Origin: Rugalucina vietnamica
Taxonomy: Eukaryota > Mollusca > Bivalvia > Lucinida > Lucinidae
Direction of reading: 5' to 3'
Length of the DNA: 64,000 nucleotides
Assembly (NCBI GenBank): GCA_964017185.1
Contig: OZ024884.1
Coordinates: forward strand, 11,695,548 to 11,759,547
Part shown: piece after piece, positions 10,251 to 48,400 of the stretch
Numbering within the stretch: the stretch's first letter is position 1
How the letters are laid out: every line of letters begins with the position of its first letter
Made by a program: the position numbers and the translations under genes
The notes under the pieces: model-generated
The model's input: only the letters and a program-made list of their open reading frames with translations
Databases searched by the model: none
What the model was told of the DNA's origin: nothing

Positions 10251-10307
10251 TATTTATAGTTTATCATCCTGTCTACGTGCATTTTATTCGTCTGTTTTTG
10301 TTTACAG

Positions 10308-10772
10308 ATGTCTGGTAAAAAGCCACCTACAAGTAGTCACACATGTGCCACATGTAATAAAGTTTTCTCAAAGAAATCATTTCTTAAGACACACATACGG
10401 TATATGCATAAAAATAAACAAGAAGATTGCCAGTTCTGCAACAGGTCTTTTCGGACAAAATCAAACCGAAAACGGCACGAGGATGTTGTGCATAGGCAAA
10501 TTAAGAGACATGTGTGTCAGGATTGTGGCGAAGGCTTCGCATCCAAATACCAGTTAAGTGGCCACAGAAGAGACAGCCACAACGTCGAAAAGCTCAAATG
10601 TCACATGTGCAAAAAGTCATTCAGCTATGCAAGCAATCTGACACAACATCAGCAAATATGTTCGGCCAAGCCGAAAGAAACCAAAAGGAACTCACATGAC
10701 TGCCAGCAATGCGGGAAAAAAATCTCCACAGACCGATACCTATTATTACTACAATGCGTGAGACAACACTAA
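10308..10772 (+). CDS. C2H2 zinc-finger protein carried by the long-TIR element (154 aa)
   Basis: A small predicted nucleic-acid-binding protein. Three classical fingers are visible: CATCNKVF...HIRYMH (about residues 13-34), CQFCNRSF...HEDVVH (about 41-62) and CQDCGEGF...HRRDSH (about 70-91). A fourth, CHMCKKSFSY...HQQIC, ends in Cys instead of His. A fifth, CQQCGKKISTDRYLLLLQCVRQH, has lost its first His. The ATG is directly preceded by a pyrimidine tract and TTTACAG, a good 3' splice site, so translation may start in a second exon behind a non-coding leader. There is no transposase, THAP, BED or nuclease domain. The final residues are encoded in the inverted repeat arm, which ties the gene to the element. 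It could be a captured host finger gene, the DNA-binding half of a lost transposase, or a regulator of the element; I cannot decide which. Confidence 0.7.
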   Translation: MSGKKPPTSSHTCATCNKVFSKKSFLKTHIRYMHKNKQEDCQFCNRSFRTKSNRKRHEDVVHRQIKRHVCQDCGEGFASKYQLSGHRRDSHNVEKLKCHMCKKSFSYASNLTQHQQICSAKPKETKRNSHDCQQCGKKISTDRYLLLLQCVRQH

Positions 10773-21240: not shown

Positions 21241-23230
21241 CTATACTAGCAGATGGAAGCTGAAATGCCTGGAGTGGCTATTTCTACAACGCCTAGTCTT
21301 TGGGATAAGGTCATCTGTAGGTATTCTGGCTTTACCCTTCAGACCTTTGTATAGTAATATAAGTCGATTATCCGTCCTCCTTTTCTTGAGAGATTCCCAT
21401 CTGAGTTGTTCAAGAATGCCAGTCATACTACCTTCCTCGAAAGTATAATTCCTAGTTACAAATCTAGCGGCACGATTCTGAACCTTCTCCAATTCCTCCT
21501 GGAGGCATTTAGTATGAGGATCCCAAACAGAACTTCCATATTCCAGGACTGGGCGCACCAGTCCTTTATAAGCTGCTTCTTTAACATCTTGGGGGCAAGA
21601 AAATAAGTTTCTCCTCAAGAATCCAAGTGTTCTGTTGGCTTTAGTACAGATATTATTGATATGGGTATTCCACTTGAGGTCATTTGTAATTGTTACACCT
21701 AGATATTTAATGCTATCAACATTTTCCAAAACCGTTCCCTCGAGGGTGTACGAGGCCTCAATTTTATTTATCCGCTTATTTGTCAGCTGCATCATGTTGC
21801 ATTTGACAGGTTGAAATCTCATGCCCCATTTTCGGGCCCAGCTCCCTAAAAGGTCAATGTCTTTCTGAAGTTTCAATGTATCTTCTACTGTTTTAATTTC
21901 ACGGTAACAAACACAGTCATCAGCAAAAAGCCTGATTTGAGAGTCAATGCCAACGGGTATGTCATTTATGTACAAGGAGAACAACAATGGACCGAGAACG
22001 GTGCCCTGAGAGACACCAGACACAACAGGGGCCCAGTCAGATTTAACACCATTAACTACTACCCTTTGCTGCCTGAAGCACAAAAAAGCATTTATCCATT
22101 CCAATGTCCTTCCACCTATACCATAACTAAACAATTTGCTTTTAAGAAGTTCATGTGGAGGGGTGTCAAAAGCTTTTTCAAAGTCCAAAATAAAAGTGTC
22201 AACCTGACCCTTTTTGTCCAATATTTTTGCCCAATCATTTATCACTGTAATTAACTGAGTTTCACAACTATGCCATTTCCTGAATGCATGCTGTTTGTCC
22301 GACAAAAGTTTATACTGGTCAAGATGACCCATGATATTTGAGCAGACAATATGTTCTAGAAGTTTGCAAGGAATACAAGTCAAAGAAACTGGGCGGTAAT
22401 TACAAGCAAGGGACCTGTCACCTTTCTTGAAAAGTGGACAAATATTAGCAAGTGACCATTCCTTGGGGATTTCACCCGTATTGATTGACTGCTGGAAGAG
22501 ATGTGCAAATACAGGTCCTAATTCTTTTGCCAATTCTTTAAGGACTCTAGGATGGAGTTCATCAGGTCCTAAGGCTTTAGATGGGTTCAGACCTTTAAGG
22601 AGTTTTGTTACTCCTTCCTTTGTTACAACAATTTCATCCATGAATGGGGCCGACCTATCCAGAAGTGGGACTTGGTTGTGTACCGTTTTGGTGAATACAT
22701 CTGTGAACTGTCCATTAAATTCTTCTGCTTTTTCGAAATCTGATTGAGCAATGCCACTTCCATTTTTCTTTTTCAAAGGGGGAATGCCTTGGGTATCTTT
22801 CCTCTGACTATTGATATACCTATAAAAATCCCTGGGATTAGCCTTAACGTCCCCTACCAAGTTATTGACATAAAGGTCATGCTGCTTCCTTATATCAGCT
22901 TTGATTTCCCTTCTTAAGTTTTCAAATTTAGATCTAATTTTTGCACTTCCAGTTTTCTTAGCTTTTGCATGAGTTATATTTTTCCTGCGAATCTTCCTCC
23001 TTATCTCAGGAGTTATCCATGGGACAGAAGAGACAGAGCGACTTGTTTTTGATGGGATATGCTTATCTGCCGAGTCCTGAATGAAAGATGTAATAAGATT
23101 GAAATTTTCCTGAACCGAACGGGTATCCGAGTAGCCATTGAAATACTTTTCCTTTGCAAATTTTAATGTTTCTGTCCTCATAGATTCATAATCACCTTTC
23201 TGGTACCGATACACCTTCCTCCGAGGTTTC
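21241..23230 (-). CDS. LINE reverse transcriptase (ORF2, RT part, ~657 aa)
   Basis: RNA-dependent DNA polymerase of a CR1-like retrotransposon. Visible in order are NPSKALGPDELHPRVLKEL (RT motif 1 region), PLFKKGDRSLACNYRPVSL (motif 2), FLDFEKAFDTPPHELL (motif A, catalytic Asp), SGVSQGTVLGPLLFSLYIND (motif B), FADDCVCYR (motif C, catalytic Asp pair), KYLGVTIT and the thumb LGFLRRNL...LVRPVLEYGSSVWDP. The reading frame is intact through the whole RT. In-frame codons continue upstream to the TTAA insertion at 23231, so the ATG at 23214 is not the native start; the protein originally ran on from the endonuclease. The homology downstream of the stop at 21241 suggests a late frameshift in the C-terminal tail. 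Confidence 0.88.
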
Positions 23231-23234
23231 TTAA

Positions 23235-23937
23235 AGCCAGATGTACGTAATTGACCTCACGGTAGAAAATTTTTATTTTTGGCATGTGGGTGTATTTTGA
23301 TGTCCTGCATACGAAAATAAAAAGAAATCGATACCGTTCCGAGCTTGTTTTCGAGATATCGGCTTTCAAAATCGTCAAATTTGAGAGCGAAAATACATTG
23401 ACGTCAACGTAAAATGCGATTTTTAGACCCCCTTTTTGTTAATTTTCTTGATATATTTCAAAAACTCCACGGTAGGATTTTTTAAAAAACTGATATGTAT
23501 TAGAGAAATTCCTGAACTACAGCTAGATAATGAGAAAGTCCCTAGTTACCGGGTTCGTTTTCCTGCTATAAGCGTGCGAAGAGAGGTAGTCGTTGCTGAA
23601 TTCAGTACGTTTTATGCGCGACGTCGATTTTGCGCCAAAATCTCCGACGCTATTTAGTATTCAATATTGCTAACTGTCGCGCAAATGATGTTTTCCTCGG
23701 GATAACATGTCCACCATCTATATTTTGAGCAAAAATAATAAATAACATCAATTTTTTTTTACATTTCTGAAGTCCTCTGCATAATTTTATGTAAATAGTC
23801 TCGTATTCCGAACGTAAACTAACGCTAGAAATGACGTTTCGAGCGAAAAGTGACGTTACGAATGCGGCGTAAAAATGACGTTTCGACCCTTAGATACGCA
23901 CGCTCCTTTGAGCGCCTTCAATTACGTACATCTGGCT
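23235..23937. mobile_element. 703-bp TTAA-flanked MITE inside the LINE
   Basis: Ends AGCCAGATGTACGTAATTGA and exact complement, flanked by TTAA on both sides (23231-23234; 23938-23941). Removing the element plus one TTAA restores an in-frame LINE junction (IVIPPIKKPRRKVYRYQ). The TTAA target fits piggyBac or Kolobok type elements. No transposase ORF. Confidence 0.88.
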
Positions 23938-27397: not shown

Positions 27398-27452
27398 TTC
27401 TACCATGGCAGAGATCTCAGACCAAGAGAAGAAAATCATCCGACAAATTGAG
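27398..27452 (+). CDS. SSB: La first coding exon (MAEISDQEKKIIRQIE)
   Basis: Acceptor TTTCTATTTCAG, then TTCTACC and ATGG (good Kozak context). Residues 1-16 form the first La-motif helix. Donor GAG/GTAACA, phase 0. A family B MITE begins about 24 bases downstream. Confidence 0.93.
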
Positions 27453-33400: not shown

Positions 33401-36400
33401 AATCAATCACGATTTTCCCAGTCTTTTTTACAAATTTTCTGAAGGTTGATAATCAGGAGCTTACTTTTCTATATTCACCAATCTAAATTAAGGTTGTTTA
33501 CATTCGTAATTCGATGTAAGCATAAAAAATAAACAAAAAATACAACCGAAAGTCAACTGAAATGTTTGAGTAGTAAAATGGGGCGCACTGTGGCGATTAA
33601 ACAAAATACATTTTCAACAATTTTAGGGTTTCCGGGGCTGCATCAAAGACCCTTACAGCTCCTGCAAGTGTTTGATTTGTTTTTATTGTCTGCAGTATTT
33701 TTAGCGTTCGCTTCAAAATAGAAGTAAATAAACAACATACCTTTTATCTAGTGCAAATCCCGATGTCTCACCGACACATCGTCCGATGCTTCACATTTTT
33801 CCGATTAACCCCCGTTGATTCACCGTTTTTCTAATACACCGTTTCCATAGGTTGCTGATGTTTACTAGCAATGAATAATGAGAAGTGAACTTTTGGGGCC
33901 TAGATAGCATAGTGGATAACATACTCGCTTGTCACATATACGATCCTGGTTCAAATCTGGGTGAAGGCTTGTGACAGGGTAGCGGTCGTCCATCCGTCGG
34001 TGGTTTTCCCCAGGTTCTCTGGTTTCCTCCGCCATGTTGATCACATTACGCCAACATCTGCGTCTTCAAGAACCCACATATAAGTTCTATGAGCTTTCTG
34101 TATAATTGAAGTAAAATAAATAAAGTTTAAACTTAAGACACAAAATTTTTTCAACATTTTAGCAGAGGTAATTACACTTCAAACTCTTTACACCGCCCCT
34201 CAATTTTCAATATAACAAGACTATGTTATAGCTTCCAAATTGTTTATTATGTGTACAGTAAATAAAATTAAAACTGAGATCCTTTAAGAGCAGTGAACTC
34301 ATTAATGAGAAAATGGAATGGGCCATACCGCGGTTTCGACTATTGAAGTCTCGTCAGTGATCCTTTAAATTTGGCAACATGGAGCCAAAGAGAGTTACTG
34401 AAATTTTGCAACTTTCAACATGGTAGTCGATACAAAGACTTGTATTATCTAAATGGGACCAAATGTATCAAACATTGGTAAGAAAATGAATCTTAACCGA
34501 TAATAAATTTCTGATTTCTCAGAATATCGTCGCTGATCTCAAAAGACCAAAAAGGAAATATCCTTATTATAACACAGTTTCACTTATAACATGGTCTGCT
34601 CGTAAGGACCCCAAAGATAGCCTTATAATGAGGTTGATCTGTATTAGAGAAGAACATTATTGTGCAATCTGAAGCAAGCAACTTCTCCAGGCAGGTTTTA
34701 CTCATTGAGGAGCTTACACGAGTGGTCATTTCATATGAAATTTATGAAACAAGCTTTTGGCGAGTTAATAAATTTCATAATGAAAAGACCCAAGTGTAAG
34801 ATTTGTTTTATCATATGACTTCAAAAATAGGATTTAATCGCCTTTGTAGTGGACATATTTTCAGTGAAAATTTACACTGTTGTTATTGACGTTGTCAATT
34901 ATGTTACTTATTCCCGCAAAAGTGTTAATACATGTGTGGTCATAACACTTTTTATTACATGATGTTATCCACTGGAAAACGGCCATGTTATAATTATGAT
35001 AATTGTTTTTATGAATGATAAATATTTCAGTATTATTTTGGAGATATATCTCTACCTAGAGACAGATTTCTGCAGGATCTTATCAAACAGGATGAAGGAT
35101 GTATCCTTTTACCTTTTTGTTTGTCAGTGAAACAAATATGGATATTTATAGTTAATTAATGAGTGCTAAAGCCTTGAGGTTATTATAAAACTTTTTTCAT
35201 GCTCAGCTGAGTTGAGCATGAAATTTCAATACTCATAAGTTATAAAATAGCCAAAATCAGCTGAAAATTCTGGGCATAGGTCCCATAAGACAGTAATTTA
35301 TCCTGCTGATAAGCGTTGAAATGCCAACAATTGTTGGCATTTCAACATTTATGAACAGGATAAATTTCAGTCTCGGCTGAATTGAGCAAGAAAAAACTTT
35401 TTTCATGCTCAGCTGAGTTGAGCATGAAATTTCAATACTCATAAGTTATAAAATAGCCAAAATCAGCTGAAAATTCTGGGCATAAATCCCATAGGACAGT
35501 AATTTATCCTGCTGATAAACTTTGTTGGCATTTTAACATTTATGAACAGGATAAATTTCAGTCTACGCTGAATTGAGCAAGAAAAAAGTTTTATACCCTC
35601 AACCCCAGATCCAAAGGTTCATCACAAAAATATGTCCGTGTAATGTGTACCCCCTTATACCCCACTTTTATATAGTAAAACTGGGGTATAAAGGGGTATA
35701 CTTATTTTTCTTATTTTTTATCCAAAACATAGATTGTGGGTACTCTTTAGAACCTCCTCGAAGAGGTGGTTCTAACGTGTACCCACAATCAATGTTTTGA
35801 GTGAAAGTATTGAAAATACATGTATCATTTTTTCCAATGAAATTTTCAATTTTTTACTGCTTCAAGTTCTTTTTTCTGAATTTGGACATGTAGATACCAA
35901 TAGGTAACTGCCAAAATTGATAAAACTCTGCTTTTGTTCCTACCGCGAAGCTGCGTCTTTGTTTTCTCATATGCAAATTGTTGGTTTTCTCATGATGTTG
36001 TGTAAATCATCAGGAAAACATGTCCGTGCAATATATACCCCCTTAAACCCCACTTTTATATAGCAAAACTGGGGTTTGCAGGGGTATACCTATTTTTCTT
36101 ATTTTCGCTCCAAAACATAGATTGTGGGTACTCGTTAGAACCGCCTCGGTGAGGCGGTTCTAACGTGTACCCACAATCAATGTTTCGAGTGAAAGTATTG
36201 AAAATACATGTATCAATTTTTTCCAATGAAATTTTCAATTTTTTACTGCTTCAAGTTCTTTTTTCTGAATTTGGACATGTAGATACCAATAGGTAATTGC
36301 CAAAATTAATAAAACTCTGCTTTTGTTCCTACCGCGAAGCTGCGTCTTTGTTTTCACATATATGCAAATTGTTGGTTTTCTCATGATGTGGTGTAAATCA

Positions 36401-39400
36401 TCAGGAAAACATGTCCGTGCAATATATACCCCCTTAAACCCCACTTTTATATAGCAAAACTGGGGTTTGCAGGGGTATACCTATTTTTCTTATTTTCGCT
36501 CCAAAACATAGATTGTGGGTACTCGTTAGAACCGCCTCGGTGAGGCGGTTCTAACGTGTACCCACAATCTATGTTTTGAGCAAAAATAAGAAAAATATCA
36601 AAAATTTTCAGCTGAAAATTTTCAATTTTTAAAGCTCAAAAAGTATCTGTTTATTGCATGGGCAAGTTTTCGTAATGATCACTGAGAACATGATTTCCTT
36701 AACTCAGTGACTCAGGGGTCACCATGGAAACGATGACAAAATTCAACAGGTTGAAGCAGATCTGCGACGATGTTGCCGTCATCGCCGCTGCTATGAGGAA
36801 ATCCACTTCGGGACTTATGGAGGTATGTAAATATATTTTTTTTTGTTTGTTTGTTTGAATCAACGGTTTAAATATACAGGTTCTAAGGGGAAAACTGTGA
36901 CAAAGTTCGACAGGTTAAAACAGATCTGCGATGATGTTGCCATTATCGCTGCGGCTATGAGAAAATCCACTTCTGGACTTACGGAGGTAGATCTATGGAT
37001 ATTTACTGTAAATCCAGAAATATTCGCAAGAATTTAATTTTCGCTAATATTCGCGAATTGGTTGCCTCGCAATTCCAAGTTCTTGCTAATAAAGTGTCAC
37101 TATAAACTTTATAGAATACATGGACACTCACTGGCAAATTCAAGAACTCGTTAATAATTCGGAGATAGAAAATTCGCGAAACAAAAGTCACGCGAAAATT
37201 TCCAAATTTACAGTATTTATTATGAAAACAGTCTCTACTTAACCCAGAAACCTCTGTGGTGCAGTGGTTATGTCACTCACCTTGTAAACCAGGGGTCGCA
37301 GGTTCGATCCCGGGCTTCTCCAGCCCGTCGGATGGGACTATAAACCGAGGTCCCGTCTCCATATGACCTTAGCTGTTGGTGGGACGTTAAACCCCAATCA
37401 ACCAATCTACTTAACTCAACTTGATTTTATTTGCAAATTACACACCACAGAAAAACACAGATTTTTCTTTAGCTGCAAAAATGATTTTTTGATATTTTTT
37501 GCTCCAAACATAGATTGTGGGGGTGCATGTTTAAACTACCTCAGAGAGGCTGTTCCAACAAGTACCCACAATCTTTATTTTGAATTTAAAATAAAAAAAT
37601 GTATACCCCTGTAAATTTAAAGTTCAGCAAATGACAAAGTTCAACAATTTGAAACAGAGCCGTGATAAAATTGCAGCTATTGTCAAGCTTAATATGAGAT
37701 TATCTAAATAGGAACTTTATAACAGTTCTAATTTTATTACTTGTTTCACCAAAAAGGAAAAAACCAAAAAAAAAAAAAACAACATCCATTTCCTCCATAT
37801 AGGTTAATGAAGATGGCACAAAACTTCGGCGATCACCTGACAATCCTATGCCAGAGAACACAGAGGAAAGACGTCAAGACCTTACAGCCAGGACAGTTTA
37901 CGCAGTGAGTAAATATTACAAAAACATAGTCTATATGACCTTTCTCCGGGATCTCCGAACAGGTCTGACACAAACCGGTCTGTGCAGCCACGGAGGATGG
38001 CTAGTTGCTTGAAATTTCGGATTTAAGAAGAAGAGGAATTGTACTATCCGTGTAGCGAAAACAAAGGCACTGATCAGCTTCGCAGTTACAGCGAAGCTGA
38101 TCTGTGCCTTTGTTTTTGCAGAGGCAAAAATCCGGTTTTCTCATGACGCTCATATATTTGCAGCGATAACCTCAAGTTTGCATATGTGATACTGTGTTTC
38201 CCACCCTCTGGTGGATGGGCTGATAACTGGAAATCACGCATTTTGAATGGAGAGAGGTTATCATGCCTGCATGTGACATTTTCGCTTGACGTTATATGTG
38301 ACATCAAGTGAAATGATGTTACATCATTTTAGTGGCGCCATTTTCTTCTTTGACACAGAAATCAACAATTTTTCGTCTTTGTTTTCGCCTATGCAGATTG
38401 TTGGTTTTCCCATGGGGCGGCTCATATTGACATTAGAAAAACTTGCTCATGCAATATACAGAGATTTTTTTTTCTGCTGTACAAAATTGAAGATTTCATT
38501 AGATAAATTTTGCTTTTTTTCTTATTTTTGCTCAAAACATAGATTTTGGGTACATGTTAAGAGTAGAACCTCATTAGCGAGGTGGTTCGAACGAGTACCC
38601 ACAATCTATGTTTTGGAGCAAAAATCAGAAAAATAGGTACACCTCTGCATACCCCAGTTTTTCTATATAAAAGTGGGGTTCAAGGGGGTAAACATTTCAT
38701 GGACATGTTTTCCTGATGTTTAGGGTCCTGTCTGAGAAAAGTTTTGCTTATTACAAAAAATTGTTATGTTCAGAAACATTGTCGTGATTTTCAGAAACCT
38801 TTCCCACTGGATGCCCAACTAGAAGAATTAATCACTTGGTTTGAAACATATGGACCCATGGACACGGTGTTCATGAGGAAAGATGCTCATAAAAAGTTCA
38901 AGGTCAGTGAATACTGGAAATTCTGAAATGCTTGCGAAAACTTAATTTTCACTAATTTTTACTTGCAAAAATACACTAATTTATGCTTGCAAAAATAAAG
39001 TTATCAGTATTATAAAGAATTACTGAAAGCGTATGCAATAAAACTTGCCTGCAAATTCAGGAACTCACTTATACAGTCAAGGACCAAAAGTATTTCCACA
39101 ACGTCAGAAACTCCATAGACACATGTATTTTCACGTTTACAAGAAAAAATCCTGTCCCTCTCGGTCAACATATTTTCATCATTTTGGTGTCATTTGGAAG
39201 GTGAACAAATAAAGCCATTAACAAGGTATTTTCAATCAATTCCGTGCATGCATTTTTAGCTCACCTGAGCCGTCAGGCTCACAAGGTGAGCTTATAGTAT
39301 ACCCATGCTCCGTCCGTCCGTCGTCCGTCCGTCCGTCGTCCACCATTTTCAAAGATCTTCTTCTCTGAAACAGCTTGGCCAATCAAAGCCAAATTTTACA

Positions 39401-42400
39401 TGAAGCATCTATGGGAAGGGGGAACCAATGTGTATATAAATAATCCAGGTCACATGACCAAGATGGCCGCCATGCCCATATATGGTAAAAACCCTTCAAA
39501 AATCTTCTTCTCCGGAACCACTGGACCGATTTCAACCAAACTTGGCATCAAGCATCGATGACTCAAGTACTACAATGTGTATATAAATCATGACCTTGCG
39601 GTGACCTTGACCTATTTTACGGCAAGGTCAACATAGGTCGCCTTTGCATTTGAATGGGAAAAATTGTTAAATTGTCATTTAAAGGAAAAATCTTGCAGAA
39701 AATGAGCAGTAGGACTGAATATTAATGATTCTGAAAAAAATTGGGCACCAGGGGCTCATCCGCCCCCACCCCGGGGCAATATACATGTATATTATCATAA
39801 TATTCAAACATCTTCTTCTCTGAAACCGCTTGGCCAATCAAAGCCAAATTTTACATGAAGCATCTATGGGAAGGGGGAACCAATGTGTATATAAATAATC
39901 CAGGTCACATGACCAAGATGGCCGCCATGCCCATATATGGTAAAAACCCTTCAAAAATCTTCTTCTCCAGAACCGGTTGACCGATTTCAAGGAAACTTGG
40001 TACGAAGCATTGATGGCTCAAGTACTACAATGTGTATATAAATCATGACCCTCTGATGACCTTGACCTATTTTACGGGAAGGTCAACATAGGTCACCAAT
40101 GCATTTGAATGGGGAAAACTTTTAAAATGTCATTTAAAGTGAAAGTCTTGCAGGAAATGGGCAGTAGGACTGGATATTAATGATTCTGAAAAAAATTGGA
40201 CCCCAGGGGCTCATGTGCCCCCACCCCGGGGCAATATACATGTATATTTCCATAATATTCAAACGTCTTCTCCTCTGAAACCGCTTGGCCAAACAAAGCC
40301 AAATTTTATGTGAAGCATCTATAGAATAGGGGAATCAATGTGTATATAAATAATCTAGGTCACATGACCAAGATGGCCGCCATGCCCATATATGGTAAAA
40401 ACCCATCAAAAATCATCTTCTCTGAAACCAATAGACTGATTTCAAGGAAACTTGGCGTGAGGCATCGATGGCTAAAGTACTCCAATGTATATATAGATCA
40501 TGACCATGTGATGACCTTGTCCAAGTTTATGGCAAGGTCAACATGGGTTGCCTATGCATCTGAATTGGGAAAACTGTTAAAATGTCATTTGAAGGAAAAA
40601 GCCAACAGGAAATTGGCAAATGGACAGAATATTGAAGATTCTGAAAAAAGAAAATGGCCCAAGGGCTTCATCTGCCCCTGCACTGGAGTTAAATACCATA
40701 ATATTCAAACATGTTTATTGGTATATGCAGCTGATCTCAGGTGAGCGTTTACAGGACCATTGGTCCTCTGGTAAAGCTACCAATTTTTAAACAACACATG
40801 GTATTTATTTTGACAATTTTTGGGCAACTTCACCATTGACGTCAATGGGAAAGTGACTTTTTAAAGATTTCCTAAAATTTCAAAATTGTTGTATACAGAA
40901 AATGCAATGTTGAAACTTCACCAAATAACATTTGTTCATTGCTTTATTTATTTAACCTTCACATGACACCAAAATCATGCAAATATGTTGACCAGAAGAT
41001 GCAGGATAATTTTTCAGGCAAACATGAAAATACAGGTAAGTCTATGGAGTTCCGGGCGTTGTGGAAATACTTTTGGTCCTTGACTGTAATTAGGAAATCG
41101 AAAATTTGCGAAATAAAAGTCACAAAAAAAAATTCTGAATGTAGTATACACAACATTACAAAAATTTGCCCATGCAATACACAGGGTTTTGTAAAGTTTC
41201 AAAAAACTGGCAATTTTCAGTAGAAAACTTTTGATATTTTTTCTTATTTTTGCTCAAAACATAGATTGTGGGTACACGTTAGAACCGCCTCGCCGAGGCG
41301 GTTCTAAGGAGTACCCACAATCTATGTTTTGGAGCAAAAATAAGAAAAATAGGTATACCCCTGCATACCCCAGTTTTACTATATAAAATTGGGGTATAAG
41401 GGGGTATTTATTTCACGGACATGTTTTCCTGATGAAAAAGCATTGTTTTTTTTTTTTTAATATTTTAGGGATCAGTGTTCGCCACATTCAAGTCCAAAGA
41501 TGACATGGAAAAATTTCTCAAGGAAGAAACAGTGAAATATGGCGACCTAGAACTAGAGGCTAGAAAGACTAAGTACGTCGGAACTGAATCAACATACTGA
41601 ATAAGCTTTAATTGATTTAGAAGTCAAGATTTATTTGAAAACTCGGCCTGTAGCATGTCATATTAATACTGAAGTGGACCTGAGTTACCTATCTTGTGCG
41701 GAACATTTCTATAGAGAAGATTTTATTATACTCTTATGTTTGTTCTTCCTCTAATGCTGATTCAACCAAGAATGTCTTGATATTAATGAAAGTTGTTGGC
41801 TGGGAATTTAAGCCATATATTTTTTCTTTGATTCAGTTAAACATCCCTTTCAAGATTATTTCAGTTCATATGAGACGGGCCAATTAGTAGATGGGGCGAA
41901 AACAAGAGAACCCCGAGAAAAACCACCAGGCACACCCGCCAGCAGAAATTGGCTTGTCTAAAATATTGCCAGAGCGGGGCTCGAACCCACATCAGACACA
42001 GCGGTGAGATGATCGAGTGATTAAGAAACAGTACTCTTAACCGCACGGCCAGGGGGGCCGCCTTTAGCCATAAATGAGCCACTATAAACAAGATGACTTG
42101 ATGTTCTTGATTTTGTTTCAGACAGCAGTATTATCAAGACAAACAAGAGGAGAGAAAACAACAAAAAGAGCACCAACAACAGAAAGGAAAACAGTAAGTG
42201 AATTCTGTTGTAGCATGAGTAAAAAATTGTTGACTGGGACGTACGAAGCAAAGAAAGTAAGAGTGACTTGGGTGAGTCTTTCACTAGAGGGAGTGCATTG
42301 TGGTTGGTTTTAGTGGTAGACAAAAAGAAAATTGAGTGTGGTAGACGTGTCGAACCCCACAGCGCTTGGTTATGCAATTAACAAGAAGTGGCGGCTCTGT

Positions 42401-45400
42401 CCTGACCCGAATAAAAAAGATAAACAAAAAGAATAAAACAAAAACAAAAAAAACATGCTGCGTGGAACCTTGGAAAATCCAAATACTGACAAATTCAAAT
42501 TTCTCATTGATGAAGATTTACCCTATCGTTTAAAGGGGATATCAACCAAACACTAAATAACAATTTCAATAAATGTTGAATACGAGGGAAAATCCAAAAT
42601 AATGTAAACTTTTGCTGTAGCGTCAACATACGTAGATAAATTTTAGAAAAACGTATATTGCGATAAAGCAGAATATTCGTAAAACAAGATAAGGTAAAAC
42701 AATTACACATTTCATAATTATCTGAAACACGCCGTGCCATTTTAAAACCATGGTGATGCATAGGCGGCGCACACGAATTTTCGGCCCTGTCCCGCGTCAT
42801 ACATGTCTCGACAAAATGTAAAATAGGCATGAGAATTGCGTTAAACTTAAACCAGCAAAAGCTTGGGTGTTTAGATAATACTGTGCATAAGTTTCAACAA
42901 ATTTGAGTAGTGCGTTTTTGAAATATTAATATCAATTGTGGGCTGTTTCAGTACTGACACAAAGACCGAAAATATCTAAATGTAGACAAAACGGGAATAT
43001 TCAATGAATAAATCAGGTGTGTAAAAATGTTCCCGTTGTGATTCTGACGCTAAAATAGCATAACAAAGATGGAAAAAGAAACAAAAATAACTCGCGTCAA
43101 TGGTGACGTAAATGCGTAAGTCACTGACCGCATTCGGACGGCTGATGATGTGGCGATTTTGAAGTAATTTAAAGTAAGAATTTGTTTCGAGTTTTGGATA
43201 CTGACAGAAAATTTGTGAGGTACAAAGCACAATAAGCAAACAATCTTTATTCTATGGTACATGTTGAATAGATGGCCGTGAGCGCTGAGGGGATGTTAAT
43301 TTCAAAATGAATAAAAACGTCAACGACGTTACGAAATCAAAGATGGCGTGCGCCGGGTAGACCATTGTGACCTTTTTGTTTTGACTGTAGATTTTTAACG
43401 AGTCGTTATTTTTTCCTGATATTTTACCACGAAAAACTAGACATATTTCGATTTATGTTCATGTTATTTTATAAGCATTTGAATGAGTTGTATAGAAGCT
43501 ACAGCAAAAGTCTACGTTATTTTGGATCATCCCCCGTAATTCTACAAAATGTTGTAAAATGAAAGTTTTGCAATTGACAATAAATTGAAAACTAATTAAT
43601 AGACAACTGCTGACAAAATTGGACATTGGAACTGATTAAAGTGTTCTTTATTCACAGAGCCAGAGAACGACAGGATGAAGAGTACAGAAATAAGATCAGA
43701 AACGAGTTAACAAAAGGTGCTATGTTACACATGAAAGGGTTCAGCGGCGAGACCAAGCGAGAAGACATCAAGAATTTCCTACAGGATCACGGTCAGGTGG
43801 CCTGGATTGACTTTGATACGGGAGATACCGAGGTAATAGAGTCAAACATCTCTAGTAATTAGATAGTATAAGTTAAGGAATATTCTGTTGTTAAAAATGA
43901 TGTATGAAACTTTATTTTTGCATAAATACCCCTGTCACAGCCATAGATTAATGGAAAGAAAGCCATGTATTAATGTAGCAATTTTCGTGTGCAGGTGCTG
44001 TTAATACTTGGCTTTTATTTATGCTCGTTACCAGGCGCCACGCAAAACATGTTAATATAGGGATCAAACATAATTTTCCATTCATTAATATTCGCTACGC
44101 CCGCAGTTTTCAACACTCCACGAGGGACCTAGCGAACGTTAATGTTTTGATCGCTATTATTGCATAAATTCTGTAAGAACGAAAGAAATAACAGCCCACT
44201 ATATTTTACAGCCTCATCACGTTTTCATAAGCATAAAAGTTTACATTCTTATGCTTGTTCCAGGCAGACTTCAGTTACGCATTATTAGCATGTGTTTTGC
44301 GTGGTGTCCAGTAATGAGCATAAATAAGAGCCATGCATCGGGACCTAGCAAATGTTAGTGAATGGAAAATCATATTTGATCCCTATATTGAAAGAAAATG
44401 AATTCAGAGTTTGAAAATGTTTGTCTGTCCTTTTCAGGCCTGGATAAGGTACGATGAAGAGAATATGGCTCCCAGTGTGTTGGAAAAACTGAACACAGCA
44501 ATGCCGGACGGTATCATGCTAAATGAATCCAAACTAGAGTGTAGGGTATTAGAAGGTATGTTAGCAGGCTAACAGTCCCAATGATTTAAGATACTTCTGT
44601 GGTATAGTTAACTCATTTAAGCCTGGCGTCCCTTTTATCGGACATAGGCAAACAGAATAGCCCCAGATGTGACGCCGCAGAACGCGGCGTCCCATCCTGG
44701 GCTATTCTGTTTGCTTATAGGAATTTCATCGAAAAATGGAATAAAATTTTAAAATCACACCTGCGGCCCCTAAAAATGAAAGTGGACTCGTCCAATTGAC
44801 ATTTATGGGAGAATCCATTCGTCAAATATGGGTTAACTCATTTAAGCCTGGCGTCCCTTTTGTGGGACATAGGCAAACAGAATAGCCCCAGATGTGACGC
44901 CGCAGAACGTGGCGTCCCATCTGGGGCTATTCTGTTTGCTAATAGGAATTTCATCGAAAAATGGTATAAAATTTTAAAATCACACCTGCGGCCCCTTAAA
45001 ATGAAAGTGGACTCGTCCAATTGATAATTATGGGAGAATCCATTCGTCAAATATGGGTTAAACTAAGTGGTTAAGTCACTTGATGCAGTGTATTCTAGGA
45101 ACTACTACTTGTAGTTAGGGTGGTGCTATGCTACTTCTACTGGTCTTTGGTGCAATACTAATAAGCAGCTGATCTCTTTGACATCAAACCCACAAAAATG
45201 CAATTTGCATTTATGCTCTCCTTATACATGTATATCCCGAAGTTCAGTCCCTTATTATCTATTGGGTATCAATTTTTGGAGAAGAAGAGCTAGAGTAGTG
45301 GTTCAAATTGCTACATAAATGAATGAAAATTAAAAAAAAAATGGAAAAGATTAAAATGGAAAAGATGAGCCATCTCATGGGAAAACCAACAATCTGCATA

Positions 45401-48400
45401 GGCGAAAACAAAGACGCAGATCAGCTTCACAGTAACCGCGAAGCTGATCAGCGCCTTTGTTTTCGCTACTCGGATAGTACAATTCCTCTTCTACTTAAAT
45501 CCGAAATTTCAAGCTTCTAGTTCTTTTCTGTGCTTGTACATGGTCGGTTTGTGTCAGACCTGTTCGGAAACCACATTGTTGGTTTTCCCACGAGGCGTCT
45601 CAAATGTCTGAAAACACTGAGCCTCTTTGTTTATAGGTGAAGAAGAGCTAGAGCGATGGATAAAAATGTTCAAAGGTCTGAGAGACGGAAAATCTAGAAA
45701 TTAACTTTGTTGTTAAAAGAAAAAAAAAAAGGAAAACATTAAGAAAACATATCCGTATAGTATATGAGCCGCGACGCGAAAAAAACGGTCTTCGGGATTT
45801 CCGACCAGGTCCGACACAAACCGGCCTGTACAGTCACAGAAGCAGGCTAGAAGCTTGAAATTTCGGATATACGTAGAAGAGGAATTGTACTATCCGAGTA
45901 GCGAAAACAAAGGCGCTGATCAGCTTCGCGGTTACCGCGAAGCTGATCTGCGCCTTTGTTTTCGCCTAGGCAAAAATCCGGTTTTCTCACGATGCGGCTC
46001 ATATGTACCCCCTTAAACCCCACTTTTATATAGCAAAACTGGGGTATGCAGGGATATACCTATTCTTATTTTTGATCCAAAACATGCATTGTGGGTACTC
46101 GCTAGAGCTGAGGTGGTTCTAACGTATACCCACAATCTATGTTTTGGAGCTAAAATAAGAAAAAAAAATATAAAAAAATTTCTACTGAAAATTTTCAGTT
46201 TTTACAACTTAGGAAAAATCAATATATTGCATGGACGTGTTTTTGTAATGAGTCTGAAAGTACTGTAAATTCGGAAATTTTCGCGTGACTTTTATTTCGC
46301 GAATTTTCTATTTCTGAATTATTAGCGAGTTCTTGAATTCGCGAGTGAGTGTCCATGTATTCTAAAAAGTTAATTGTGGCTCTTTATTAGCGAGAACTTT
46401 GAATTCGCGAGGCAACCAATTCGCGAATATTAGCGAAAACTAAGTTCTCGCGAATATTTCCGGATCTACAGTATTGAGTCTCTTTGTTTATCTACAGGTG
46501 ATGAAGAGCTAGAGAGATGGATCAAAATGTTCAAAGATATTGCCGATAGGCGACAAGGCTTCAGAGACAAAAGAAATAAGAAAGGCCGAGATGGGGGGAA
46601 AAAACAGAGATATGGATCGAGACCTTCAAAGGTAAATTATTACGAAAACTTGCCCATGCATTATGCAAAAAAAATTTGGAAGTTGTTAAAAATCAAATTT
46701 TTCAGTAGAAAAACATAGATTGTGGGTACACGTTAGAACCACCCCCGTGAGGCGGTTCTAACGAGTACCCACAATCTATGTTTTGGAGAAATAGCTATAC
46801 ACCTGCGAACCCCAGTTTTTCTTTTACAAAAGTGGGGTTCAAGGGGGTATACTTTTTATGGACATGTTTTCCTGATGTTTTTAAGGTTTCTAAAGTAAGA
46901 GGGAGTGCAGTGGCCTAGTGGTAGAGCATTGGACTCTGAATCGAGAGGCCCTTTGTTCTATCCCCACTTGAGTACATGCGCGGATCCAGAGGGGTCCGGA
47001 CCCCCCTGGAATTTGAAAATTTTCCCTAAAAAAAGGTAATTTCGGGATTTTTTGAGGGTTGGACCCCCCTCGTCTGTGACCAAAAATTACCATTTTCGTT
47101 GGACCCCCTCTCATGAAAATTTCTGGATCCGCGCATGGAGTAACCATGTCGTGTCCTTGAGTAATGGTCAATACCCAGGAAGCTGGGTCTCCTGCTCAAC
47201 ATGGCCGAAAAATTGTTGACTAAGGCATTAAAACACAATACAAACTAACAAAATAAGAATAGAAGATCCAGAAATGGATACAACGAAATATAAAATCCCA
47301 ACCCAGATAGCAGGTAGCAAAGAAAGGACAGTACAATACAACACCAACATATTACAACATATAGGATGATTAAGATGACTAGCTCTTTCCCAACAAGGTA
47401 GCCACCTGACTAGCATCAACCAGAGATCTCGAGGACGCCAGATTCGGCGTCCCGGGACGAGAAAACTTGGACTCGGACGCATGATTCTGCCAAGAGATGA
47501 TTCCCGGGACGCAAGATTTTTTCGCCGTGAGACGTCCCAAAATTCCCATCTTTACCTTGGCTTTTGTTGTTTATTAGCTCCAAGAATCAATTATCTCCAA
47601 TCAAGATAGGGATTACACAAATTAATGGTGTTGTCCCAATGCAAATTAGACATGCTATAAAGTTTCACGCCTCCGGCGCCTGATCAATATGACGGTCGCG
47701 TGTCATTGTGTAAACATGTTAGCATACGGTTGATCGGTCAGCTAACATAAAACAATTTACTTTTTAAACAGTCATAAAATCTTGTGAAAACCTAGCGATT
47801 TTCATTTAAAGATCAATGGAATTACATAAACAATTAAAAAAAAAGCAAAAATTTTACACTTTTGGACCGATTTTTGAAATGTCATTAGTTTTCGCGACTT
47901 TAAAATTAATGGAAAAATCGTGATTATTTGTTTGTTCTTGTTGCATCAAAATCATAATTGTTGGTAAAACTTTGTTTAAAGTGTTCAAAAGAGGTTTAGT
48001 GTCCATATTTTAATAATGAAGAATGCAAGCCAATCTTATCATTCTTACCAAATTGACAGTACTTAGGAAATCCAGCCTTTGAGGGGTCACCCCTCATTCA
48101 CCCCAAACTCATTACTGAACAAGCGAAAGTAAATGATATTCACCTAACATTATATGATAGACAGATGTCACAGAAAGGCTTTGTCTACAAAAGGAGCTAA
48201 TTTTGGAGTGTATTACACACATTTCTTGGTCTTACCTAGTAGAGTAGACCCCCCCCCCCACCATGTACCTAACCAGTGTAACCACACTACTAAGACTGTT
48301 TAATTATACCCCCGGCATTTATGCCGACGGGTATATAGTTTTCGCTTTTCCGTTCGTCCGTTCGTCCGTTCGTATGTTCGTTCGTTCGTTAGTTCGTTCG

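Follow-up and report, generated by a model that had tools for sequence, protein, structure and literature searches.

A tandem copy of exon 4 in the La gene of Rugalucina vietnamica keeps its borders and frame and is probably not a maintained alternative exon

The window, by which we mean the whole stretch of 64,000 nucleotides analysed here, carries a La (LARP3) gene on its + strand. The gene runs from an N-terminal coding exon (MAEISDQEKKIIRQIE) at 27405-27452, located by tblastn with the relatives P0001 and P0003 and given with approximate borders, through exon 11 at 46498-46631, and its charged C-terminus probably lies near 53129. In between, all on the + strand, are exon 3 (YYFGD...DEG, donor GAT/GTATCC) at 35031-35100, exon 4a, the family-type exon that encodes W46 to E81, at 36716-36822, and exons 5 (37803-37904), 6 (38795-38902), 7 (41469-41572), 8 (42122-42193), 9 (43658-43832) and 10 (44438-44555). 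When exons 3 to 11 are spliced with 4a, the product scores 56.4 bits for the La motif PF05383, 45.7 bits for PF00076 (RRM1) and 77.4 bits for PF08777 (RRM_3) in Pfam, and it matches the Lupus La protein chain 9nf8_B with an E value of 3.6e-60 over residues 1-322 of 330. By these matches to La motif, RRM1 and RRM_3, the gene with 4a encodes a genuine La protein. Among the best 120 of 207 matches to the 4a form the four closest proteins, all unnamed, have 71-80% identity, and the closest named ones are those of Mya (57%) and Mercenaria (56%), which agrees with a bivalve. Elsewhere in the window we noticed by eye a 671-aa open frame on the - strand (21241-23256) that resembles the reverse transcriptase of a mobile element, and an open frame with several C2H2 zinc-finger-like units (10260-10772).

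Exon 4a is followed, after a U-rich gap of 57 nt containing one AG (36823-36879, + strand), by exon 4b (36880-36986, + strand), an open tandem duplicate in the same phase. A mutually exclusive pair should consist of adjacent homologous internal exons of the same phase and similar length, and 4a and 4b (107 and 107 nt) are of this form. The original prediction, made from the letters of the window, had described two same-phase 107-nt exons with AG and GT borders and 57 nt between them, all of which is exact, and our recount agrees with its statement that from TKF onward 11 of 29 codons differ, 8 of them silently. In ungapped comparison 76 of the 88 nucleotides of this tract are identical in the two exons; with 4a, 4b and the third copy 4c set aside, the best other place in the window scores 42, and the similarity of 4a and 4b is far beyond chance. 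Alignment to Lupus La PDB chains puts the Trp and the Phe of this region at chain positions 46 and 55, the latter in agreement with the F55 of published papers. As had been predicted, 4b replaces WVTME by CSKGK and keeps the Phe; in the same numbering its residue changes are W46C, V47S, T48K, M49G, E50K, M52V, N56D, V67I and M80T.

If 4b is used at all, the two exons probably exclude each other, which says nothing about whether 4b is used. Including both shifts the frame, so that the reading MEVLRGKL meets the early TGA that had been foreseen, at bases 19-21 of 4b, and skipping both also leads to an early stop, the reading being GC followed by two stop codons. The adenines 17-22 nt upstream of the 4b acceptor are 36-41 nt away from the donor of 4a, and all adenines of the gap that stand more than 10 nt before the acceptor are at most 41 nt from that donor. 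A steric threshold of roughly 50 nt between 5' splice site and branch point is cited in vertebrate work (PMC7969005), and since the branch candidates fall below it, the suggestion that the 57-nt gap may be too short for splicing of 4a to 4b finds support. With the TGA in 4b and a steric barrier extrapolated from the vertebrate threshold, joint inclusion of 4a and 4b is probably either blocked or unproductive.

The donor of 4b (GTAGAT) has neither +4A nor +5G, and 8 of 17 positions in the 4b acceptor are pyrimidines, which speaks somewhat against a regulated exon, though exon 3 is no better, with 7 of 17 pyrimidines in its acceptor and 2 of 7 donor matches; as exon 3 is the weaker of the two, these counts do not disqualify 4b. 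An alternative 4b acceptor eight bases in (AAG/GGG), which would yield a Trp codon, was rejected by eye because it breaks the frame. Around 4a, a 7-bp hairpin (CACTGAG/CTCAGTG) is predicted at 36680-36709, directly before the acceptor, and a second AG lies 8 nt upstream of the acceptor AG that is used. Folding of the RNA of 36680-37010 gave a z of -1.71, 3 of 100 shuffles being at least as stable, and revealed no structure that could be linked to exon choice.

We compared both forms with 123 homologs, comprising the best 120 of 207 matches to the 4a form and three matches to a 129-aa 4b fragment. W46 is found in 123 of 123 homologs, F55 in 122 and N56 in 108. Taking W46 and N56 beside F55 as the mark of a functional La motif, 4b has lost the first two (C46, D56) and retains the Phe. 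Six of its nine new residues, C46, S47, G49, V52, D56 and T80, occur in none of the 123 homologs, whereas 4a carries no residue unseen among them; in leave-one-out counts 87 homologs had no unseen residue, 27 one, 6 two, 2 three and 1 five, the maximum. A profile derived from the homologs gave 4b a whole-exon score of 58.8, below 4a (103.2), which is likewise outside the profile, and below every homolog, the homolog range of 81.7-115.1 being flattering as the profile was trained on the same homologs. The 29-codon tract of 4b alone scored 68.3, within the corresponding range of 59.8-90.7. In Pfam, exchanging 4a for 4b lowers the La score to 38.3 bits, which narrowly passes the cut-off of 37.1. 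In the human La complexes described in PMC2430598 the U-1 phosphate is held by backbone NH groups, those of N56 and R57, and U-4 is contacted by the N56 side chain, so an Asp at position 56 would be expected to be harmful; F55 is listed as one of six pocket residues (PMC7928032).

No 4b-like protein is present among the best 120 of 207 matches to the 4a form and the three to the 129-aa 4b fragment, all 123 being 4a-like at the Trp, and a search with the 4b segment of the complete 4b form gave one candidate, with none scored. In terms of conservation of the pair in relatives this amounts to 4b-like sequence in 0 of 123 aligned homologs, all taken from a protein collection. The best La match has only 80% identity and no near-identical protein from the species of the window is among the best 120 of 207 matches, so the absence of 4b there says little on expression; isoforms within 90% identity could also be hidden inside a protein cluster.

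About 650 nt downstream of 4b lies a third copy, 4c (37614-37720, + strand, recognisable from about 37631), which the original prediction had missed. This copy is dead: it has an in-frame TAG, no donor GT and no acceptor in register. Without gaps it matches the 4a tract at 47 of 88 nucleotides, the next best place except 4a and 4b reaching 42, and its first 43 nt match at 31 positions, as compared with at most 25 elsewhere. Used as an outgroup, 4c allots 11 of the 12 nucleotide differences of the tract and leaves one silent change unplaced; since it is very diverged, differing at 41 of 88 nt from 4a and 42 of 88 from 4b, the placement of single sites is noisy. The 4a branch receives no replacement and five silent changes, and the 4b branch three of each. 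When the neutral replacement fraction is fixed by hand at 0.65-0.75, neutrality is rejected for the 4a branch (P 0.001-0.005) and not for the 4b branch (P 0.17-0.35, or 0.07-0.20 with the unplaced change put on 4b). In simulations of neutral copies carrying 6 or 7 substitutions, 6-23% of the runs gave no more than three residue changes. A count that dispenses with 4c and holds 4a fixed gives 3 replacements among 12 changes, which is somewhat few (P 0.02-0.07), and when all 12 changes are put on 4b the replacements are far too few (P 0.001 or less); adding the first seven codons shifts the whole exon towards neutral.

Judged by these counts 4a is under purifying selection, none of its five placed changes being a replacement, and the pattern on the 4b branch appears compatible with no selection, although some of the counts leave a hint of constraint in the 4b tract. 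The original prediction leaned on the 8 silent differences among the 11 differing codons, which by themselves do not show constraint on 4b. Both branches contribute to the differences between the copies and the parent branch is a constrained one, hence a high silent share is no proof of constraint on 4b; five of the nine silent nucleotide changes belong to the constrained 4a branch.

Exon 4 is not the only exon with extra copies. When the nine La exons from 3 to 11 were compared with the window, additional copies were found of exon 4 and exon 11. A partial duplicate of the start of exon 11, 11b (45637-45675, + strand), matches at 92% of 39 nt (E 6.9e-9) and reads on into a stop. A possible further copy at 45281-45310 (80% of 30 nt, E 0.019) runs into a stop as well and is weak when taken alone, as a reversed low-complexity decoy reached E 1.5e-4. 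Both partial copies lie upstream of the real exon 11. Before its stop 11b reads GEEELERWIKMFKGLRDGKSRN, and it could conceivably act as an alternative last exon; it retains the Glu of the relatives P0001-P0004 at a position where exon 11 has Asp.

Four other La-domain places of the genome were taken for comparison, and one of them, a LARP4-like La-motif exon (L004 1189-1815, on C16 at about 14.182 Mb), is accompanied by two additional pieces in tandem, within some 0.6 kb. These copies (L003, L004) resemble 4b in concerning the same domain in the same genome at close range, and they differ in their state: the nearer ends in a stop and the farther is a fragment, whereas 4b is still open. The genome search for La domains missed the split La exons of the window itself and is insensitive to such genes. 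From this handful of cases, which gives no genome-wide rate, it looks common for short exon copies to be made and lost in this genome.

With regard to age, 4a and 4b have C62, A66 and A70 in common, residues found in none of the four closest relatives and in 2, 7 and 18 of the 123 homologs, respectively. The tract therefore probably split after the lineages of the closest relatives had parted, or was homogenised later, and the pair is probably young or recently homogenised. The similarity is not even along the exon, as the local alignment of 4a with 4b spans exon bases 13-107 only. In the first 19 bases 11 differ as against 12 of the remaining 88 (Fisher p = 0.0001), and of the first seven codons six differ by replacement and one silently. 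Such a contrast is not as expected from uniform neutral drift, and the sharp drop inside the exon suggests a conversion tract, an in-exon breakpoint or uneven selection. On the upstream side, 36600-36693 matches other places in the window and ends about 22 nt before 4a; on the downstream side, 37004-37075 matches another repeat and starts 17 nt after 4b. With dispersed repeats abutting the copies, little intron flank is left for a comparison of 4a and 4b.

Based on these data we propose, with a probability of roughly 70%, that 4b arose by tandem duplication of La exon 4, has kept its borders and frame and is not maintained as an alternative exon. Local duplication in a repeat-rich genome would keep generating short exon copies, the working La motif would be supplied by exon 4a, and 4b would be either ignored by the spliceosome or rarely used. 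Were it used, the 57-nt gap would hinder joining to 4a, and splicing would give an in-frame La with D56 and no W46 in its La motif, which may be expected to fold or to bind UUU-OH poorly. We favour decay because 4c is dead, the copies of exon 11 and of the LARP4-like exon are broken, residues of the family are lost and the 4b branch is neutral-like. Counting against decay, 4b keeps its AG, GT, phase and frame, and its 29-codon tract scores like that of a homolog. It is also conceivable, at a small probability, that La transcripts include 4b at a low level with no selection on it, or that 4b leads only to a by-product of the La transcript that is unproductive or dominant-negative; its borders are of ordinary strength for this gene and its frame is open, yet the sequence contains nothing that demands such splicing. 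An assembly artefact, for instance two divergent alleles set in tandem, is hardly credible, as the coding tract shows 12 differences in 88 nt and replacement of invariant residues, the flanks of the copies do not align and the assembly consists of long contigs (47, for 1.09 Gb).

The original prediction had instead envisaged two La isoforms with altered 3'-end recognition or stability, that is, genuine mutually exclusive exons in which 4b is regulated and the choice is enforced by the short intron and the frame. Equal length, phase and AG/GT borders, the stops met when both exons are included or both left out, the branch candidates below the threshold of about 50 nt cited in PMC7969005 and the score of the 29-codon tract within the family range all agree with such a pair, and the long U-run and single AG of the gap are like those of the OGDH 4a/4b intron as described in that paper. 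Nevertheless W46 and five more residues of 4b lie outside the variation of the family, its branch is neutral-like at 3:3, no 4b-like relative is among the listed matches and the sibling copies are broken, so that we now consider regulated exclusion unlikely. A functional 4b is made less likely by the loss of the Trp and by the broken sibling copies, and slightly more likely by the intact frame and borders. A more specific version, in which 4b acts as a tissue or state switch that replaces W46, V47, M49 and M52 and places an acidic residue at N56, keeping the RRMs and weakening UUU-OH binding, seems improbable.

Known systems show both what a used pair looks like and how 4b departs from it. OGDH 4a/4b and U2AF1 3/Ab are, like La 4a/4b, tandem homologous exons, and OGDH also has a short intron between its two exons, with branch points closer to the first donor than the steric limit (PMC7969005). 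The OGDH and U2AF1 isoforms are, however, reported as expressed (PMC7969005, PMC5224494), whereas La 4b, described here from genomic sequence, has lost residues invariant in its family. Closer in phylogeny, the duplicated exon 10 of oyster AOX is also a tandem exon duplicate in a bivalve; it differs from La 4b in being a terminal exon with its own stop that is common to two oyster species, and it is described as expressed and stress-responsive, spliced as the second copy alone or as both copies together (PMC5589949). Tandem exon duplication is reported to be common and mutually exclusive splicing of the copies not, and many predicted mutually exclusive exons are not true events (PMC9741552). 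Among newly predicted intronic exon candidates in human, 654 of 1,722 were verified, 358 with three reads, and the overall verification rate was lower (1,399 of 6,541), according to PMC5740500. A search of open-access papers, which is weak evidence of absence, found no title on mutually exclusive La exons among those listed.

Our results call for caution in that many silent differences between tandem exons are no proof that both are used, as a constrained parent contributes silent changes of its own, and the dead 4c copy is what makes the parent's share of them visible. Should the switch prove true, splicing would control how far La turns away from binding 3' ends and towards roles that involve only its RRMs. 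If 4b is regulated, it would provide a natural on/off control of the RNA 3'-end pocket of La, separating the functions of the La motif from those of the RRMs in an animal.
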